From assembly GCF_001280425.1 (NCBI RefSeq), contig NZ_LIUF01000002.1, positions 248,001 to 312,000 on the forward strand: 64,000 nucleotides of DNA. Direction: 5' to 3'. Below are positions 46,261 to 55,091 of this stretch, in pieces. The notes below the pieces were generated by a model. That model saw only the letters and a list, made by a program, of their open reading frames with translations, did no database searches and was not told the origin of the DNA. Source of the stretch: Haloarcula rubripromontorii. GTDB lineage: Archaea; Halobacteriota; Halobacteria; Halobacteriales; Haloarculaceae. The number at the start of each line of letters is the position of its first letter. Positions within the stretch are counted from its first letter, which is position 1. The translations under genes and the position numbers were made by a program.

Positions 46261-48216
46261 TCACTCCCGGTCCAGATACGCAACCTGCTGGTCCGTCGGG
46301 TCGTGCAGGCCGTAGGGCAGAATTCCGCCGGAGAACGTGTACGTGTTGTGCCCGACGTAGTCGGTCGACAGCGACGAGACGTTCGTCCCAAAGACGGTGT
46401 AGCTGTTCGGGGCCTGCTCGATGAGTCCCCGCCAGACCCGGTCGTACTGCTCGCCGCGGAACCCCGGGTCCTCGACGGCCTCGACCGAGAACCGCGCCTC
46501 CGTCGCTATCTCGTCCAGTTCCGGCGTGTCGACCCGCTGGAAGTTACAGCACTGCCCGAAGTTGTCGATAGAGTTGACGGCGTCGTAGAAGCTCCCGGGG
46601 TTGAAGGTTCCGGAGAGACCGATGAGGACGATGTTGCCCTGCTGGTAGTACTCCGGGCCGAGGATGCGCTGGACGAACGTCGTGAACTCGAAGGTCTCGA
46701 CGCTGATGTCGAAAAACTCCGTGTTGCTCATCACCTGGGCGATGAGTTCGGCCTCGCGCACGCGGTCGTCAGAGGTGTTGGTCTCGATGGTCGCCTCGAT
46801 GGGCGTCTCGACGCCGAGGTCGTCGACGGCCTCCTGCAGCAGTTCGGTCGCGCCCTCAGTGTTCTGCTCGGTCTGCGGGCGCAGTTCCTCGACCAGCGCG
46901 TCGTAGTCGGCCGACCCCTCGTCGGCAGCCAGCTCGGGCAGCGGCGTGTACGCCGGGTTCCGGTACCCGTTGTAGATGTTGTCCGCGATCTGGGCGCGTG
47001 GAATCAGCTGATTGACGCCCCGGCGGATTCGCTCGTCGTCCCAGGGTGACTGGGTGACAGGGTACTGGAGGAAATTGTACGCCCCGGCGTTGGTCACGCT
47101 GAGCCGGTAGTCATCTGCGCTCCGGTACTCGCTGTACGTGTCGCTCGTGAGCCCGTAGGTGAGGTCTATCTCGTTGTTGTTGAGTGCGGCCGCACGTGTC
47201 GCGTCGTCGGTGACAATAGAGACCGTGATGTCGTCGACAACCGGGCTTGTCGGGAACCCGTCCGGGCCGTCCCACCACTCCAGCGCGTCGAGGCCGAGGT
47301 CGTCCAGCCAGTAGTCCTCGAACGTGCTGAACTGGGCGCGCTGTTCGGCTTCGTAGGACTCGAACTCGAAGGGCCCGGTCCCGATGGGCGTCAGGTCGTT
47401 GCGCGGGTCCGCCCCCCTGTCGGGGTACTCTTCGATGTGTTCCATCGGGTAGACCGTCGGCGGGAGCTGGCTGTCGGCCTCGGCGTCTGGCTCCTGGCCG
47501 TAGATGTCGACGGTGTAGTCGTCGACCGCCTCCGCGTAGAGAAAGGAGTCGAATGTCTGTGCGGAAATCGAGGAGTTCTCCAGCACTTCGTACGAGCGGG
47601 CGACGTGTTCTGCGGTCATCTCCTCGCCGTTGTGGAAGGTGACCCCCTCGTGGAGTTCGGCCCGGTACTGTATTCCGTAGGTCCCGTCTGCGACAGCGTC
47701 GGGCGCTTCGTTGACCGTCAGCACCTCGCCGTCCTCGGGGTTCCTGATGATGATCTGGTCGTCGGCGACGAGGTTGCCGTCGTCGTCCGTCTCCGCCGAC
47801 ACCATGTACGGCTCGTAGGCCCCGTCCTCGACTTCCTGGACGTCCATCCGTTCCCACGTCTTTGCGAGCCACGGGTACACAGTCCCCGCGGCGTCCTGCG
47901 TGATGAGGCTCTCGTAGACGAGTCCGTGGACGTTGCCGGCCGGCGCGCTGGTGCTGTATGACGGGTCGAAGGAATCGATACCCGCACCGAGGCCGAACCT
48001 GAGTGTCCCACCGTCCTGAATCTCGTCGACGGACACCGCTGCCCGTTCCCGGACCGGGTCGAGGCTCTGACCACCCTCGCTTTCGCCGTCCCCGCCTCCG
48101 TCGCTGCCGGCGCTACAACCGGCGAGCATCACTGCTGTTGCTGCGCCTGCCGACTTGAGGACACGCCGTCGCGTCACTGTATTCGTGTCTGCAGCTGCGT
48201 CATAAGGCATTCCCAT
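46261..48216 (-). CDS. dppA: Solute-binding lipoprotein of the dipeptide-type ABC importer
   Basis: The 651-residue protein has a Tat signal (TRRRVLKSAGAATAVMLAGC; lipid-carrying Cys34) and a Gly/Glu-rich linker. An SBP family 5 domain follows with AVSVDEIQDGGTLRFG, LAKTWERMD and VTFHNGEEMTAEHV. It binds peptides or a similar solute outside the cell and delivers it to the DppBC channel. ATG 48216 was preferred; ATG 48252 and 48210 are possible. The operon order is A-B-C-D-F. No metabolic gene is linked, so the solute (peptide, sugar or nickel complex) cannot be fixed. Confidence 0.92.
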   Translation of the reverse strand: MGMPYDAAADTNTVTRRRVLKSAGAATAVMLAGCSAGSDGGGDGESEGGQSLDPVRERAAVSVDEIQDGGTLRFGLGAGIDSFDPSYSTSAPAGNVHGLVYESLITQDAAGTVYPWLAKTWERMDVQEVEDGAYEPYMVSAETDDDGNLVADDQIIIRNPEDGEVLTVNEAPDAVADGTYGIQYRAELHEGVTFHNGEEMTAEHVARSYEVLENSSISAQTFDSFLYAEAVDDYTVDIYGQEPDAEADSQLPPTVYPMEHIEEYPDRGADPRNDLTPIGTGPFEFESYEAEQRAQFSTFEDYWLDDLGLDALEWWDGPDGFPTSPVVDDITVSIVTDDATRAAALNNNEIDLTYGLTSDTYSEYRSADDYRLSVTNAGAYNFLQYPVTQSPWDDERIRRGVNQLIPRAQIADNIYNGYRNPAYTPLPELAADEGSADYDALVEELRPQTEQNTEGATELLQEAVDDLGVETPIEATIETNTSDDRVREAELIAQVMSNTEFFDISVETFEFTTFVQRILGPEYYQQGNIVLIGLSGTFNPGSFYDAVNSIDNFGQCCNFQRVDTPELDEIATEARFSVEAVEDPGFRGEQYDRVWRGLIEQAPNSYTVFGTNVSSLSTDYVGHNTYTFSGGILPYGLHDPTDQQVAYLDRE

Positions 48217-48548
48217 TGACCTCGAAAGCTGTGTGTTATGTTGCCCTCCCACACACTTATAGCATAACGGCGCTCGGAGTCAGGCAACAATCGGTATGCG
48301 CGAGTCCGGGAGCAAACTACATCGGCGCCGATACAGACTCCGCGAGCGAGCTTTCCCCCGACTGCACTGCGCTGGTGTCTGGTCTCCGACCCCTGCGCGC
48401 TGTTCGAGACCACGTCTAAAGATGACGGCACGTGGGATTGGTCGTTCAACTTCGTCCTGATGCCGGGCGCTCCCGGTATGAATAACACTGAGCCCCGGTC
48501 GAAGCTGGGGCCGACATCTACAGTTGCGATTCGAGTTCGAGCGGCTGT
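48217..48548. other. Intergenic region, 332 bases
   Basis: This gap holds the dpp operon promoter, with a ctataagt element about 48257-48264 on the minus strand and an inverted repeat gttatg/cataac flanking it. No gene is seen. Several short ORFs here are shadow frames. Confidence 0.45.
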
Positions 48549-48875
48549 TCAGAACGGCGGGCTGTAATCCTCGTACTCGTCCATCTCCTCCATGTCGTCG
48601 GTCTTCGAGGGCATGACCGCAGCGCGCGGCCCGCCGGAGCGGACGACTTCGACGGCTTCGAGTCCGTCGACGCTCTCGGGGAGTCGGCGTTCGATTGCCT
48701 TCATCGTCATCGGAGCGATGCCACACCCCGAACACGCACCGCCGATGGCGACGGTGGCCGTGCCTTCGCTCTCGTCGATGTCGCGGACCTCGAAGTTGCC
48801 GCCGTGTTGCTGGATCTGCGGGACGTTGTTGCTCAAGTAGTTACGCGTCTGTCGTTCGAGTCCTTCAGCGCTCAT
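48549..48875 (-). CDS. NifU C-terminal-domain iron-sulfur protein
   Basis: The 108-residue protein is a single NifU_C domain with the cluster-binding CSGC (Cys48, Cys51) in GGACSGCGIAP, and an acidic C-terminal tail. Such proteins carry or assemble Fe-S clusters. The gene is monocistronic with a leaderless promoter (tttatgatat, centre 29 bases before ATG). A 12/14 match to the DtxR-type operator found at the neighbouring regulator gene sits just upstream of that TATA box, so it is probably iron- or metal-regulated. Confidence 0.9.
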   Translation of the reverse strand: MSAEGLERQTRNYLSNNVPQIQQHGGNFEVRDIDESEGTATVAIGGACSGCGIAPMTMKAIERRLPESVDGLEAVEVVRSGGPRAAVMPSKTDDMEEMDEYEDYSPPF

Positions 48876-48917
48876 AACAATTCTACATTTGCACCATCAT
48901 ATCATAAATCTGGTGCT

Positions 48918-48931
48918 TTTGGCATACCTAA
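48918..48931. promoter_or_regulatory. DtxR-type operator candidate upstream of the NifU-like gene
   Basis: On the minus strand the site reads TTAGGTATGCCAAA, matching 12 of 14 positions of the perfect palindrome TTAGGCTTGCCTAA at 49861. It lies directly upstream of the TATA box. A shorter inverted repeat TTAG-TATC-CTAA (48982-48993) lies ~60 bases further away. Confidence 0.55.
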
Positions 48932-49047
48932 AATATCGGTATATAGGGCATTGAACGGCAATATTTTGGCCCACAAAATAATTAGTATCCTAATTCTATC
49001 AATTTTTCGCACGGCCTAAAACAAGCTTGGTATGGAGTAGCCGCCGC

Positions 49048-49470
49048 TCAGGCGGCATCCTCATCCGACGCCACCGAGCCACCCTCTGAACCCTCCTGTC
49101 GCTGCCTCGTTTCGGCGTCGCAGGGCAGCGTCGCGGCCAATCGCTCCGCGACCATCGGGCTGACCAGACCGGCCAGTTCCATCGCTTCCGTCTCGTGATC
49201 GTCGAGATCGAGAACCCCCCGAAAGAACCACGAGACGGTCACGTACGCCTCGTGTAACTCCGCCGCTTCCTCACGCCCTGTCTCTGTTAGCGTCACCCCC
49301 TCATATGGCTCGTATGTGACGAGATCCTCCTCCGCGAGTCGCTGGCACATCTCCGTCACCGCCGCCGGCGACCGGTCAAGCAGCTCTCCCAACTTTCCCG
49401 GGGCGACTGGCGGTTCGTCCCGGTGCTGTGCGATGTAAATCGCCAGCAGATACTCCGGTGCCGTGCTCAT
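49048..49470 (-). CDS. DtxR/MntR-family metal-responsive regulator
   Basis: The 140-residue protein has an N-terminal winged helix (about 1-62, LGELLDRSPAAVTEMCQRLAEEDLV, VTLTETGREEA) and a dimerisation region (about 63-120). In DtxR the primary metal site uses Cys102, Glu105 and His106; the aligned positions here read MELAGLVS, so this site seems degenerate, while the His of HETEA is kept. This alignment was made by eye. The gene overlaps a 60-codon ORF by four bases (ATGA). Two TTAGG/CCTAA palindromes upstream suggest autoregulation. Confidence 0.87.
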   Translation of the reverse strand: MSTAPEYLLAIYIAQHRDEPPVAPGKLGELLDRSPAAVTEMCQRLAEEDLVTYEPYEGVTLTETGREEAAELHEAYVTVSWFFRGVLDLDDHETEAMELAGLVSPMVAERLAATLPCDAETRQRQEGSEGGSVASDEDAA

Positions 49471-49649
49471 CGCTCCGACGGATTCGTCCGCTTCCCGCCG
49501 CTGCCTGTGGCCGTACCTGTCGTCGACTCCCCTGTCGGCTGCTCACCGGTCCCGAAGGCCACCGCGCAGGCCCATGCCCACAGCCGGGCATGCGACTGTT
49601 GCGGGCAGTTACCCATTCCCACCATCTCGCTATTTCCGTCCGCACTCAT
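49467..49649 (-). CDS. Small ORF upstream of the DtxR-family gene
   Basis: The 60-residue ORF (MSADGNSEMVGMGNCPQQSH) ends four bases inside the regulator gene, so the two would be translationally coupled. It has two Cys residues and a Gly/Thr/Ser-rich C-terminus. I do not recognise it. The coupling supports a real gene, but the low complexity and short length leave doubt. The region just upstream (49630-49854) has another coding-like frame without a normal start codon. Confidence 0.45.
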   Translation of the reverse strand: MSADGNSEMVGMGNCPQQSHARLWAWACAVAFGTGEQPTGESTTGTATGSGGKRTNPSER

Positions 49650-49860
49650 CAGGCAGACGCCCCCGGTACTGTCGGTAGAACACGAGTGGCCGAGCGACCG
49701 TTCGTCGGTGGACGCTCAGCATGACGCCCACAACATACGTCGGTACCACGCGAACGGTGTCGATAGCGACCCCGACGATACGAAACGGTCTGCCATCGAT
49801 CTCTGCGTGGATCTCCCCCCGTTTGTGCTCCGCACTCAGTACCGTCGCCTGCCATATATT

Positions 49861-49874
49861 TTAGGCTTGCCTAA
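49861..49874. promoter_or_regulatory. Perfect DtxR-type palindrome at the regulator promoter
   Basis: TTAGGCTTGCCTAA is a perfect inverted repeat (TTAGGC-TT-GCCTAA) that matches the ends of the known DtxR/IdeR box (TTAGG...CCTAA). It lies just downstream of a ttttatatta TATA-like element on the minus strand (about 49876-49885), where binding would block transcription. Confidence 0.7.
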
Positions 49875-49895
49875 TAATATAAAACGTCTGCGTTT

Positions 49896-49909
49896 TTAGG
49901 ACGGCCTAA
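49896..49909. promoter_or_regulatory. Second DtxR-type palindrome upstream of the TATA box
   Basis: TTAGG-ACGG-CCTAA matches the first site at 12 of 14 positions and is centred 35 bases further upstream, on the other side of the TATA box. Two sites around one promoter indicate cooperative or looping repression by the DtxR-family protein encoded just downstream. Confidence 0.6.
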
Positions 49910-50115
49910 TCCAACCGACAAGGTCGGTAAGCGGGCGCAGTTGAGCCTGTCGTCCAGAGAATCGAATCTATCGCACTGCACTCCGCTTCACTATCGGGAA
50001 GTGGTCGCCGCCGTATCGCTGTCTGCATCGACTCGACCAGTCACGATTTCGGAGGATGGATTTGATGCGTGTCCTATTTACTACATTGAGCGTCGAACTC
50101 ACTACGCTCGCAACT

Positions 50116-51084
50116 CTACTCGGACGATTTGTTCGTCGAGTGTGTCTCGCTGTCACAGGCCATGAGTGTCGAAACGGTGTTCGCGGTGAGTTCTCCCTCG
50201 CCGTCAATTTCTGCTCGCGTCGAGGACTCGTTACAGTCGAAGTTTTTGGGTGTTACTTGCTCAGTCACCGTCGTCTCTGTTCCGAGCACAGCCATCGATA
50301 GGGTGTACGTCCCTTTCTCACTGAAGGTGAGCAGTACCGTCCCCCTGGGTTCAACCGTGTAGACCCCATCGAATTGCGTTGTCGAGTCGTTTTCGACGAG
50401 GATTCGGGTCGTCCACGTTTTGTCCGACGGGTTCCGAAGCATGAGCGTGTGGCTAAACTCCCCCGTATCTGCGGGTATCGGATCGTGGCCGAGTGTGTAC
50501 GACGCTAGCTCATCGGTAAGTGCTGTTTCGGTGACAACACCGGGACACGCCATACGCGTGGAAACACTCATCGAATCAAGCGTGTTGTCCTCCTGAATGC
50601 TGACTGTCGTTCTGGCCACATTACAGGTGAACTGACCGGGTTCGACCGTAACCTCTTCAGTCGCATCCAGCTCAGGAATCGTCACACAGGTAGTGTACGT
50701 ATCGAGATCGGTGAGTGACACGACGATGCTTGCGTTCGCTTCGAGTTCCACCGATTCCTCAAACACGGTCTCGTTGGCCTTCGAAACCGTAATCGTCCCT
50801 TGGTGGGCCGCCTCGGTCGGGTTTCCGAACGCGACGTGGTGAGGTTTTCTGAGACCGCGCTCTTCGAGTGATTCGGACCCGAGAGTCCGTTCAGCGGTGT
50901 CACCAGCTTCAATTAGTGTTTCCTCCGGCATTTGTTCAGTCACAGTCTGTGCTCCCTCAGCAGTGGCAGCTGTCGTTTCTGAGTCCGTATCAGGTGAACC
51001 GCTCGAAGTTGCTTGAGAGGTACAGCCCGCTGTTGCGGTTGTGAGTACAATCCCAGCGCTTGCCAGAAACGTTCTGCGTTCCAT
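50116..51084 (-). CDS. Tat lipoprotein with two tandem cysteine-pair repeats
   Basis: The 322-residue protein has a Tat-type lipoprotein signal (MERRTFLASAG, lipobox TAGC, Cys21), a Ser/Thr-rich linker and two similar beta-rich repeats. Repeat 1 has FTCN (Cys154) and STRMAC (Cys180); repeat 2 has FDCN (Cys284) and STLMAC (Cys310). Each Cys pair is 26 residues apart and the repeat period is 130 residues, so this is an internal duplication, probably with one disulfide or metal site per repeat. The family is not recognised. The gene follows the membrane-tethered regulator gene, and its promoter has the same operator. Confidence 0.8.
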   Translation of the reverse strand: MERRTFLASAGIVLTTATAGCTSQATSSGSPDTDSETTAATAEGAQTVTEQMPEETLIEAGDTAERTLGSESLEERGLRKPHHVAFGNPTEAAHQGTITVSKANETVFEESVELEANASIVVSLTDLDTYTTCVTIPELDATEEVTVEPGQFTCNVARTTVSIQEDNTLDSMSVSTRMACPGVVTETALTDELASYTLGHDPIPADTGEFSHTLMLRNPSDKTWTTRILVENDSTTQFDGVYTVEPRGTVLLTFSEKGTYTLSMAVLGTETTVTEQVTPKNFDCNESSTRAEIDGEGELTANTVSTLMACDSETHSTNKSSE

Positions 51085-51122
51085 ACACTACCATGAGAGG
51101 GGTCAAGTATCGTCCTATCCCA

Positions 51123-51144
51123 GATTCAAAGGCGTCTTTGAGTC
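51123..51144. promoter_or_regulatory. 22-bp inverted repeat before the lipoprotein gene
   Basis: GATTCAAAG-GCGT-CTTTGAGTC is a palindrome with nine-base arms and one mismatch. Its centre is 49.5 bases before the lipoprotein start codon. The same element occurs at 51832-51853. Confidence 0.7.
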
Positions 51145-51160
51145 CTGGAACCCGCTCACA

Positions 51161-51793
51161 TCATGAGGTCTGCATCTTTACCGGACGGTATGTTTGCCAG
51201 TACCACGCCACGAAGAGGAACAGAATCGTGAGGACGCCGATTCCGAGGACAACCCCACCGGGGCCAGTACCAAAGGTGACGAGTGGCTCCCAGATAGTTG
51301 GCTCAGGTTGCTGAACCGGAGGCTCACCCATTCTAGGTGAAGGGGAGGGGGCCGGTACTGACCGACGCGCATGGACGAGCGCACTGACGATGCCGACGAT
51401 ACCAATGCCGCCGAAAACTCGACGCAATGCAGTCTTGAGTGATGGCGTTGTTCGCTCTGCTCCGGTGAAAAGGACGAGTGCGCTATTCGTTGGTGCATAT
51501 ACATCCATCTCTCGTCCCTGTTCAGAATACCACGTCTCGATTACTTCAACCAAGCCGGCGTCGCTGAGTCGATCTAGATGGTAACTGACGTTCTGTACCG
51601 ACGTGTCGAGTTCGGTGGCAATTTCCGACGCTGTCGTTGGTTCGTCGTAGATGATGCCGAGAATACGGCGCGCCGTCGTTGAGGTAATCGTTGACAGGAC
51701 CTGTTCTGCCTCGTCATCCTCGAAATCGATGAGTTTCGGAGCCAAGTCACGGTCCGTAGTTGGTGTGGGCTTGAGCGGTAGAAGCGAGGACAT
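51161..51793 (-). CDS. Membrane-tethered winged-helix regulator
   Basis: The 210-residue protein has an ArsR-like winged helix at about 27-100 (TARRILGIIYDEPTTASEIATEL, TSVQNVSYHLDRLSDAGLV). Two hydrophobic helices at about 126-142 and 178-198 enclose a Pro/Ser-rich loop (about 147-170). DNA-binding proteins with C-terminal membrane helices act as one-component sensors that link an envelope signal to transcription. Its own promoter and that of the neighbouring lipoprotein gene share a 22-bp inverted repeat at the same distance, so it likely controls both. The topology puts the loop outside, where it might contact the lipoprotein. Confidence 0.82.
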   Translation of the reverse strand: MSSLLPLKPTPTTDRDLAPKLIDFEDDEAEQVLSTITSTTARRILGIIYDEPTTASEIATELDTSVQNVSYHLDRLSDAGLVEVIETWYSEQGREMDVYAPTNSALVLFTGAERTTPSLKTALRRVFGGIGIVGIVSALVHARRSVPAPSPSPRMGEPPVQQPEPTIWEPLVTFGTGPGGVVLGIGVLTILFLFVAWYWQTYRPVKMQTS

Positions 51794-52209
51794 AGTATGG
51801 CTCTCTTTTGTGGTGGTATATGACTACGGAAGATTCAAACAGTCGTTTGAGTCCGATACAGTTGGCGTAGCAGCGTTCAGTACGATCAATCTGGGGACCA
51901 CGAGGTGCCCACCAACGACGAACGGCGACCAGTGGTCCAGCCTTGCGGATAATCACCTTCTCCGGAAACGGGTTACAATGCTGAGCGAGAGTCTATCGAA
52001 ACGATGGTCGGGAATGGAGCGGCCGCCGTTGAATCGGACGCTGTCCATATCGAGTAGGTCTCGCACGCAATGGAGTATACTCCGAAACTCTGCGATCAGT
52101 TGGGTTACCCGATTTGATATCGCAGTATGCGATTTATCGGTGCAATCGCCATTCATCTTCTGCTCGTCGATGAACAGCTAAATCAGGGTGAGCAGCGGCT
52201 AAAACACCG
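51794..52209. other. Intergenic region, 416 bases
   Basis: Apart from the operator at 51832-51853 and the regulator's promoter (catatacc TATA-like element near 51816), this AT-richer stretch contains no convincing gene. ORFs at 51747-51956 and 51953-52156 on the minus strand are Arg-rich, unlike local proteins. They could be remnants of an insertion sequence, but no transposase motif is visible. Confidence 0.45.
51832..51853. promoter_or_regulatory. 22-bp inverted repeat before the regulator gene
   Basis: GATTCAAAC-AGTC-GTTTGAGTC has the same outer 16 positions as the element at 51123-51144; only the innermost arm bases and spacer differ. The centre is 49.5 bases before the regulator's start codon, the same distance as for the lipoprotein gene. 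Confidence 0.7.
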
Positions 52210-53118
52210 CTATTCAGTAAACTCGGTAATAGAATCGAACGCGTCGGCCGCCAGCCGTTCAGCGACTGCGTCCCTGTCCACGTCACTGATTTCCTGTGGA
52301 TATTTTCGTTCGAAGTAGCTCACAATGTTCTCGACATCGCGAGTTAGCAGTTCCCGGGCGTTTTCGTGGTCGGTCGGGACGGCCTGGGGCCAATCGAAGA
52401 CGACAACGCCCTCATTCGTGACGAAGACGTTGTACTCGCTCATGTCCGCGTGGACGTACCCCTCGCGGTAGGCCGTCTGCATCTCTTCGAGGACGAGATC
52501 CAGAATCGGTAGTACCTGTTCTGTTTCGAGTTTCGTTCGGGAGAGTTCGACACCGTCTATCTTTTCCATGACAATCGCATGGCGGTTCGTGTCGATTGGC
52601 TGTGGGACCGCCACGTCCGGATACAGCGTTTCGAGGGCATCGTACTCTCGCTCGGCGGCCTTCCGAGCGGTGTAGAGCCAGGAGACGTGGTCGCGGTCGG
52701 CGGTGTACTCCCGCTCTTTCATCACTTCGCGGAAATTGGTGTACCCTTCGCGGTGGTACTTCAGGGCCACCGGCTTGTACGACTGGGCCTCGTACACGTC
52801 GCTTTCCTTGCCCACGCCCAGCGGTGAGCCGACACCCTCGATGGTGTCGCGCTCGGCGAAGGTGTGGAGCGCGAGCGTGTCATACCCCTCGAAAGTGAGC
52901 TTGAACCCCTCGTACTGGATGGTCTTCCGTTCGACCAGGCCGCGGTCCGCACACCGGTCGAGCCGGTAGTCGACGTCTTCCGCCGTCAGCCGGGAGAACT
53001 CGGTCAACTTCTCGCGGGCGACGTACTCCGAGAACCGCATCCCCTGCTCGACGCCGGAGAGCAGATGGAAGTCCTCGGGTTCCAGCTCCGCCATCACTGA
53101 AGCCACGTTCTGGACCAT
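52210..53118 (-). CDS. rio2: Rio2-type serine/threonine protein kinase
   Basis: The 302-residue protein has the Rio2 N-terminal winged helix (about 1-90) and a RIO kinase domain with the P-loop-like GVGKESDVYEA, catalytic HADMSEYNVFV and metal-binding VFDWPQAV motifs. Rio2 is required for late steps of small ribosomal subunit maturation in archaea and eukaryotes. It is transcribed alone. The start ATG 53118 gives MVQNVASVMAELEPEDF, which matches the family. Confidence 0.94.
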   Translation of the reverse strand: MVQNVASVMAELEPEDFHLLSGVEQGMRFSEYVAREKLTEFSRLTAEDVDYRLDRCADRGLVERKTIQYEGFKLTFEGYDTLALHTFAERDTIEGVGSPLGVGKESDVYEAQSYKPVALKYHREGYTNFREVMKEREYTADRDHVSWLYTARKAAEREYDALETLYPDVAVPQPIDTNRHAIVMEKIDGVELSRTKLETEQVLPILDLVLEEMQTAYREGYVHADMSEYNVFVTNEGVVVFDWPQAVPTDHENARELLTRDVENIVSYFERKYPQEISDVDRDAVAERLAADAFDSITEFTE

Positions 53119-53705
53119 TAGCGTTCTCTACTCGATGGACTGGTAAAAGGTCGACGCGTTCGCCGGATAGATCTGATAAACCTTTGAACGCTATACAAAA
53201 TCTCTCATCTCGTCTCAGACGTTGCTGTATCGGCGGACGCCAAGCGCTCTGCCCGGCGTCGGCTGGCGCAGATGGGCGTGAGGTGCTGCGGTGTTCGAAC
53301 GCTGCCTGAGACGGCTGCGCTACTATTTCGTATCTGTCTGACTTGACCCGCTACTTCGGTGTTTCGTGACCGAAACCGCACTTCGGTCGATTGATCGTCG
53401 AATAAGACCTCATTAACCTACAGAATCACACGTTTTTATTTTGGCATCATACGTCTGTTATCGCTACTGTACTGCCGTTTCCGCATCTCAAAATGTGACT
53501 GATAAGGCTCGAAAATGGCGGTAGCTGGTCGCACGCTCCCTTCACACACGATGCAGCTGAAAGAAGCGGTAAGCCGAGTATCGACTCGAAAATATGTTCC
53601 TAATCACCGTGACAGTATATGTAAGGCGAACGGCGACTATGTTCGCCGACTGTGTGCCCGTTAAGCTACTCTCTACTTTTCATTATCTAAACGCAAGTGT
53701 GTCGT
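53119..53705. other. Long intergenic region, 587 bases, with hairpins
   Basis: This gap separates divergent rio2 and the GT-C-like gene. It is AT-richer than its surroundings. Visible structures are GACCGAA-N7-TTCGGTC (53368-53388) and GGCGAAC-N9-GTTCGCC (53625-53647). One 37-codon ORF (53551-53664, plus) ends shortly before the next gene's promoter. No tRNA or known RNA is recognised; a non-coding RNA is possible. Confidence 0.45.
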
Positions 53706-55091
53706 GTGAGCAGACAACATAAAGACGAGCTCAGGGATCTGCTTCGCTCACTTGCGTTCAATTCTCACGACCGTCGGCTCGCGTTTCCGGTGCTGTTTGC
53801 CGTCGGTGCGGAACTGTATTTCGTACTGACAATCACACTCGGTTCTGCCCGTCCCCCGATGGCTCCCGACGCTGGCATCTTCCAGCATCTCGGCTGGTAT
53901 CTGACGCGGGGCGGTCGATTGTACGTCGACGCCTGGGAGCCGAAGCTCCCGCTGTCCTACGAGACGACCGGTGCTCTGGCGATGCTGGCCGGCGGCGACA
54001 TGTACCGGCTCCACCTCCTCAGCGTGGCGCTGATGAGCGTGGCGGTGTGTGGAATCGTCGGGCTCGTCGTGATACTCGTCCACGACATCACCGGCGACGA
54101 TGTCGCTGCATCGCTGGCCGGCCTCTCGATGTTCCTGCTGCCGGGGTTCGCCGTCCGGCCCGCCTATGGGTTCAAAGCAAAGTACCTCTTTGTCCTCTGT
54201 GGACTCCTGGCGATATACCTGTACACGCGCGAATACCCGGCGTTGAGCGGTGTGGCCGCGGCGGCCAGCGTCGGGTACTGGCAGGCCGCGGCCATCTTCC
54301 CGCTCATCGTGGTTGGACTGGCCATCCAGCAGCGAGACGTGCGGGCGCTCGAACGTGTCGTCGCCGGCGGCCTCGGTTTCACTGTGGTCATGCTTGCGCC
54401 GGTGTTTCTCGTCTGGCACTCGGTCTCGGAGATGGTCGTCCAGGTGCTGCTCGTGCCGCTACAGACCGAGGAGCAGGCGTCGATACTCGCCCGACTCGTC
54501 GCCGGCGTCGTCCATTTCAAGTGGGCGTCGCCGTTCGTGGTACTGGGCGGCCTCGGACTCGCGCACACCGCCCGGTGCTGGCTCAGGGGCGACGACAGCG
54601 TGGTCGGGTGCACCGACTGGTGGATTCCGGTCGGCGCGGCGTGGTTCGCATTCCTGATATTCTTCGTCGACTTCGAAACCGGCGGCTACACCGACCTCAT
54701 TCCGGGGCTCGCGTTCGTCGCAATCGGCGTTGGGATAGCCGCTGCGACACTGCGTGACCGACGACGGAGGCAGGCGCTCACCGCGGTTCTCGCGCTGGTT
54801 CTCGTCGTCAACGTCGCCGTCCTCGGTAGCGTCGGTCTCGTCTTCACACCCGTTGAAACGCCGGGACCGGTGCCGATGTCAGACCTCGAAACCACCGGTC
54901 TCCCGGAGGCCTACGGGGAGAGCGAGTCGGTGCCCGATGTCCGGTACATCTATTGGCAGCGGCTCGAACCGTCGGCGTGTCACTACCGGCTCTCGGTGAT
55001 GGAGTTGCGGTGGCTCGACAGAGTCGACTCGTCGGTAGACAGTCGCTGTCTCGACTTGGGGACCGCCAGAGCGAGGCTTGCAAGCGGCTAA
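53706..55091 (+). CDS. GT-C-like multi-helix membrane protein (possible lipid-linked sugar transferase)
   Basis: The 461-residue protein has about ten membrane helices. After the first helix it has an outer loop with PDAGIFQHLGWYLTRGGRLYVDAWEPKLPL, like the acidic catalytic loop of GT-C/PMT-type glycosyltransferases that use dolichyl-phosphate sugars. Related haloarchaeal genes are annotated as DolP-mannose mannosyltransferases. No agl genes are adjacent, so a role in protein or lipid glycosylation is a family-level inference. The start is GTG at 53706 or 53697; a cattatct TATA-like element ~28 bases upstream favours 53706. Confidence 0.75.
   Translation: MSRQHKDELRDLLRSLAFNSHDRRLAFPVLFAVGAELYFVLTITLGSARPPMAPDAGIFQHLGWYLTRGGRLYVDAWEPKLPLSYETTGALAMLAGGDMYRLHLLSVALMSVAVCGIVGLVVILVHDITGDDVAASLAGLSMFLLPGFAVRPAYGFKAKYLFVLCGLLAIYLYTREYPALSGVAAAASVGYWQAAAIFPLIVVGLAIQQRDVRALERVVAGGLGFTVVMLAPVFLVWHSVSEMVVQVLLVPLQTEEQASILARLVAGVVHFKWASPFVVLGGLGLAHTARCWLRGDDSVVGCTDWWIPVGAAWFAFLIFFVDFETGGYTDLIPGLAFVAIGVGIAAATLRDRRRRQALTAVLALVLVVNVAVLGSVGLVFTPVETPGPVPMSDLETTGLPEAYGESESVPDVRYIYWQRLEPSACHYRLSVMELRWLDRVDSSVDSRCLDLGTARARLASG

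Follow-up and report, generated by a model that had tools for sequence, protein, structure and literature searches.

Within the window, which is the whole 64,000-nucleotide stretch of Haloarcula rubripromontorii DNA that was analysed, a lipoprotein gene (50116..51084, minus strand) and a regulator gene (51161..51793, minus strand) are neighbours on the same strand. A first-pass annotation of this DNA had reported identical palindromes centred 49.5 bases before both start codons, and both its positions and its spacing were exact. The palindromes are GATTCAAAGGCGTCTTTGAGTC at 51123-51144, the putative operator of the lipoprotein gene, and GATTCAAACAGTCGTTTGAGTC at 51832-51853, the putative operator of the regulator gene. 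Measured from the centres (51133.5 and 51842.5), the distance to the downstream start codons at 51084 and 51793 is exactly 49.5 nt in both cases. With at most three mismatches allowed, the palindrome matched the window at these two places only, and dinucleotide shuffles of the window (n=100) gave a mean of 0.4 matches and never reached 4. In the whole genome (3.97 Mb) the exact palindrome was also found only at these two places, with two further places carrying two mismatches. This suggests that the regulon defined by the exact site is this locus alone.

The pair and its flanks (48000-54000) have a G+C content of 0.54-0.60 compared to 0.63-0.66 in the adjoining DNA, which agrees with acquired DNA. 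A gene-poor stretch of the same region carries two perfect DtxR/IdeR-type palindromes, TTAGGCTTGCCTAA and TTAGGACGGCCTAA, at 49861-49874 and 49896-49909 and 21 nt apart, and a 140-aa protein that matches the N-terminal Fe_dep_repress domain only is encoded at 49048-49470.

The regulator (210 aa) was described in the first-pass annotation as a winged helix followed by two membrane helices around a Pro/Ser loop, and the HTH_20 match and the hydropathy profile agree with that description. The winged-helix DNA-binding domain occupies residues 39-86 (51536..51679) and is matched by the Pfam models HTH_20 (E 1.1e-15), MarR_2 and HTH_5. It is followed by membrane helix 1 (residues 122-140, 51374..51430, hydropathy 1.73), a Pro/Ser/Gln-rich loop of 38 residues (141-178, 51260..51373) that is predicted to be extracytoplasmic from its position between the helices, and membrane helix 2 (residues 179-197, 51203..51259, hydropathy 2.38), all on the minus strand. 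The AF2 model of the regulator has a pLDDT of 41, so the predicted membrane topology rests on hydropathy. The protein belongs to the HVO_1552 family: PF24267 (HVO_1552_C), whose cut-off is 27, gave 29.0 bits (in the genome search, 27.5 bits), and the protein has the winged helix and two hydrophobic segments, the latter being present in all members listed. Close orthologues conserve P-[DE]-P-T-x-W-E in the loop, and across the clade the loop is short and poorly conserved. Several other assignments were rejected. Metal sensing was suggested by generic ArsR models, which the regulator matched with scores far under their cut-offs. For a defence role, the matches of the regulator (Csa3, CARF-HTH) were confined to its HTH region, and the lipoprotein gave none. 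As for a viral origin, no relatives of the pair were found on viral contigs.

The lipoprotein (322 aa) has a Tat-like (twin-arginine-like) N terminus, MERRTFLASAGIVLTTATAGC, with the lipobox AGC21 (Cys21). The two repeats and the cysteine pairs 26 residues apart noted in the first reading of the sequence were recovered by repeat alignment: repeat 1 spans residues 60-185 (50530..50907, minus strand; C154-N...STRMAC180) and repeat 2 spans residues 190-314 (50143..50517, minus strand; C284-N...STLMAC310). The repeats are homologous, about 125 residues each, and share the pattern F-x-C-N ... S-T-x-M-A-C, in which neither cysteine varies among 40 repeats taken from 20 diverse lipoproteins. The CN...STxMAC part of each repeat is what the Pfam META model (PF03724) matches; the window lipoprotein scored 28.1 bits against a cut-off of 24, matching only profile positions 37-82 of 109. 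META was matched at E<0.1 in all nine lipoprotein orthologues (9/9), and the two orthologues scanned singly were under the cut-off. An AF2 model built from nine sequences had a mean pLDDT of 57, with 111 residues at 70-90, and at this low confidence it is compatible with two beta-sandwich domains. In this model strands 155-163 and 169-177 form a beta hairpin with C154 and C180 at its open end, and a disulphide between them would therefore be geometrically plausible. Foldseek matches (PepT1/PepT2 extracellular domain, query TM 0.23-0.28) indicate no more than an Ig-like tandem, and no function was assigned from them.

Distribution of the gene pair and its site

Each of the two proteins was searched against 293 sampled genomes of the order and the resulting loci were then joined. 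Regulator and lipoprotein were adjacent in 28 of the 293 genomes, which belong to five families (f1, f4, f7, f10 and f12) and include Halorubrum, Halorhabdus, Halobellus and a Halobaculum plasmid. The pair is sometimes plasmid-borne, and most genomes of the five families are without it. No third conserved gene was found in the neighbourhoods of about 14 kb around the pairs, which yielded mainly shadow reading frames and neighbours common to few genomes. This patchy spread, together with the lack of anything else conserved around the pair, suggests that it may be a two-gene unit exchanged between lineages.

In all pairs, even those whose lipoprotein identity falls to about 30%, both genes were preceded at about 50 nt by a site of the type GACTCAAA-N6-TTTGAGTC. 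Absence of the palindrome from orthologous pairs, which the first-pass annotation had proposed as the observation that would count against it, was thus not seen. For the lipoprotein gene, 39 of the 41 upstream regions scored have the operator centre at a distance of 49.5 or 50.5 nt from the start. For the regulator gene, where the operator is kept in all orthologous pairs, the distance was 49.5-51.5 nt in most pairs and 54.5-57.5 nt in the more divergent ones, in which the regulator-side sites were often weaker too (12-14 of 16). Operators of the TCAAA class before the regulator and lipoprotein of one locus were not significantly more alike than operators from different loci (p = 0.22).

The site is also retained where the genes are apart. 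Lipoprotein genes without an adjoining regulator (L022, L024, L027 and L033-L035) keep it, and in one genome the regulator (L056) is on the chromosome, a 3.1-Mb replicon, and the lipoprotein (L024) on a 224-kb plasmid, with sites before both. Four genomes with the lipoprotein (G064, G087, G134 and G169) have only distant paralogues as relatives of the regulator. A strict scan of the 293 genomes found the site in 33, made up of 20 of the 28 pair genomes and 13 of the 265 others; two of these 13 have the lipoprotein but no pair, and 11 were other genomes.

Two sets of sites lie before different genes. At L090 and L091 (sites at 1501-1522), which belong to two of the 11 other genomes, a strict palindrome stands exactly 50 nt before the start codon of different, mutually homologous Cys-rich lipoproteins; these loci come from two other genera of the family, and each genome has a same-clade sister regulator bearing the site (L155 and L117). 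In other families of the order, a longer-armed variant (CTCAAAA-N4-TTTTGAG or similar) was seen at L106, L107 and L080, where the genes 50-53 nt downstream encode membrane or lipid-anchored proteins.

The claim that one regulator controls both genes has thus gained strong comparative support from the pairs, the unlinked lipoproteins and the same-half paralogues described below, and its binding to the site stands as a prediction. The same site at nearly the same distance in every relative examined very probably makes the pair a small self-regulating surface-response switch.

Promoter architecture

The regulator promoter has a TATA box (CATATA, 51817..51822, minus strand), identified by sequence and conservation and spanning -29 to -24 relative to the start codon. 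This position fits a leaderless transcript, and in Haloferax volcanii leaderless transcripts are the rule (72%) (PMC4983044). The lipoprotein promoter has the TATA-region element CGATAC (51107..51112, minus strand), which is non-canonical yet conserved, GATA being at the same place across the lipoproteins. When promoters were aligned on the operator (non-redundant sets of 30 and 29), conservation was high in the operator arms and the TATA region only and was near zero upstream of the operator. The TATA region was centred about 24 nt downstream of the operator centre in both sets, the conserved TATA of the regulator promoters occupying 22.5-25.5 nt. Across the set the regulator promoters followed the TATA consensus, whereas the lipoprotein promoters carried a non-canonical but conserved GGGATAGG-N-CGATA, the GATA being preceded by a conserved GGGATAG.

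The site therefore lies directly upstream of BRE/TATA at a fixed spacing, which is the position of an archaeal UAS. The UAS of haloarchaeal GvpE, which is 20 nt long, is also upstream of BRE and TATA (PMC8241225), and the mostly leaderless transcripts of Haloferax place the operator just upstream of BRE in the same way. From this position activation would be preferred.

Related regulators of the HVO_1552 family

The family is named in Pfam, and no paper in the literature searched mentions HVO_1552 by name. In a tree of 92 family members (FastTree, midpoint-rooted), all pair regulators formed one clade inside one half of this large haloarchaeal family; the genome of the window itself has four members. 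A TMAAA-N6-TTTKA site, counted at >=8/10 core positions (that is, at least eight) and 40-80 nt before the start, was found before 14 of the 19 members of this half that are not in a pair, compared to 5 of 41 in the other half, against a background of 1.6% of random stretches. The halves were delimited after the sites were seen and kin sequences are not independent, so the Fisher test for this difference (p 4e-6) is indicative only.

Five of the 19 same-half non-pair members adjoin other lipoprotein genes and the remaining 14/19 have no lipoprotein neighbour. The lipoproteins concerned are single-domain, two of them with weak Ig-like Pfam matches. A lipoprotein link for the entire HVO_1552 family was ruled out, as none of the 41 members in the other half adjoins such a gene. 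At L131 the sites are of a TAAAA/TTTTA version, GGGTAAAA-N6-TTTTACTC before the regulator and GGGTAAAA-N6-TTTTAGCC before the lipoprotein. At L137 the regulator and lipoprotein are divergent and have one perfect AACTAAAA-N6-TTTTAGTT in common; this palindrome, AACTAAAATCGCTGTTTTAGTT at 2654-2675, lies 53.5 nt from one start and 58.5 nt from the other. The repeated linkage of related regulators to other lipoproteins makes a functional coupling with the lipoprotein plausible.

Members of the other half (L115, L119, L121, L124, L126, L132, L133, L139, L140 and L144) showed a separate feature: a conserved element resembling CAACAAGTTTGTAT often precedes their start codon by about 30 nt. This is perhaps a different operator or a core promoter.

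A broader proposal is that one entire half of the HVO_1552 family is made up of switches linking the membrane to promoters, with a diverged TMAAA-N6-TTTKA operator at about -50, many paired with an Ig-like lipoprotein as an outside sensing or feedback partner. We regard this extension as speculative and rather unlikely to hold in full. If true, archaea would have an equivalent of the one-component systems with which bacteria respond to envelope stress, and one that uses neither kinases nor sigma factors.

Proposed mechanism and known systems

The reading favoured here, and considered reasonably probable, is that a membrane-held regulator binds the palindrome and activates its own promoter and that of the lipoprotein, forming a compact, horizontally exchanged two-gene signalling module. 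The regulator would be a one-component transcription factor anchored in the cytoplasmic membrane, with its cytoplasmic winged helix binding the palindrome directly upstream of BRE/TATA, both in the regulator's promoter and in that of the neighbouring lipoprotein. It would probably bind as a dimer, as the site is palindromic; dimerization, like binding, is what knowledge of such families leads one to expect. The trigger would be some membrane or cell-surface condition acting on the membrane helices and the outer loop, and the triggered regulator would most likely activate both promoters. The output would then be a surface-anchored tandem Ig/META-like lipoprotein and more regulator, which amounts to positive autoregulation. 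Comparison of related loci supports a common operator that has a fixed position and is linked to the regulator clade; direct binding, activation as opposed to repression, the outward signal and the role of the lipoprotein are the parts of the model that we infer.

Other explanations must be weighed against this model. The lipoprotein could be a sensing or feedback partner that occupies or protects the outer loop of the regulator and thereby sets its activity, much as TcpH acts on TcpP, with the loop closed through the lipoprotein's own operator and with either sign of regulation possible. This agrees with the strict conservation of the two genes, with the recurrence of other lipoproteins (two having weak Ig-like matches) next to related regulators and with the two invariant cysteines per repeat at the surface. 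In addition, TcpH controls both how active and how abundant TcpP is (PMC11323476). However, copies of the lipoprotein occur in genomes without a close regulator, the outer loop is short, with little conservation among clade members, and the pairing fits a plain output gene equally. A sensing role is thus possible but doubtful. It is somewhat less likely again that the same module works with the opposite sign, in which case the regulator would repress both genes from the -50 site until a membrane signal releases it (negative autoregulation). The regulator's winged helix is of the ArsR/MarR type; such winged helices are often repressors, and repressors typically regulate their own genes through an identical operator. 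However, the site is wholly upstream of BRE/TATA at a fixed spacing, where haloarchaeal activators such as GvpE bind (PMC8241225), and the non-canonical TATA region (GATA) of the lipoprotein promoter fits dependence on an activator. Finally, it is improbable that another, unlinked factor binds the palindrome and controls regulator and lipoprotein alike: strict sites do stand 50 nt before other lipoprotein genes (L090 and L091), but those genomes each have a same-clade regulator with the site (L155 and L117), the site is limited to this locus in its own genome, and throughout the clade it goes with the regulator's own gene.

How archaea report cell-surface conditions to promoters is little understood. 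As a module of two genes and one operator, with nothing else conserved, that recurs in five families of haloarchaea, the system lends itself to study. A candidate for heterologous expression is Haloferax volcanii, which is a standard organism for genetics and has an HVO_1552 member itself. For many regulators of the HVO_1552 family that are still unstudied, targets can be predicted from the operator rule and then tested.

Transmembrane transcription regulators are widespread in archaea (PMC10269533), and the window regulator, with a DNA-binding domain and a membrane region in one protein, fits this broad class. In bacterial pairs of the TcpP/TcpH type (PMC10269533, PMC11323476), the DNA-binding domain is fixed to the membrane, as is predicted here, and the partner is a membrane or envelope protein. 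However, TcpP and TcpH differ in DNA-binding family and membrane topology, and the partner in the window is an archaeal lipoprotein with its own operator; the likeness is one of arrangement and does not imply homology. Of the META domain proteins (HslJ and Leishmania META1; PF03724), only the CN...STxMAC half of each window repeat is reminiscent, whereas the rest of the repeat looks Ig-like and the protein is a tandem and archaeal. GvpE resembles the present system in the position of its UAS upstream of BRE/TATA, but its operator sequence differs. GvpE, the gas vesicle activator, is also soluble and is not a winged helix of the HVO_1552 family.

The nearest characterised analogue is ArnR/ArnR1 of Sulfolobus, although by the features tested the window regulator is not of that family. 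In Sulfolobus acidocaldarius ArnR/ArnR1 is a membrane-bound one-component factor that binds TCGAC-N5-GTCGA upstream of the promoter and activates a cell-surface gene (PMC6396743). Like the window regulator, ArnR is archaeal and has an N-terminal HTH and two C-terminal membrane helices, and both are associated with inverted repeats upstream of the promoter, bound in the case of ArnR and predicted to be bound here. However, ArnR has a putative HAMP and a sensing domain between the HTH and the membrane, whereas the linker of the window regulator is much shorter, with no Pfam match to HAMP and only about 35 residues between the HTH and helix 1. The window operators, GATTCAAA-N6-TTTGAGTC, also do not correspond to the ArnR box. 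ArnR regulates the archaellum and pili and is conserved in Sulfolobales/Desulfurococcales, whereas the window regulator has a predicted lipoprotein target and a predicted extracytoplasmic loop. Its own place is in the HVO_1552 family (PF24267 and HTH_20), where the pair regulators form an inner clade with a conserved operator at -50 and lipoprotein partners.
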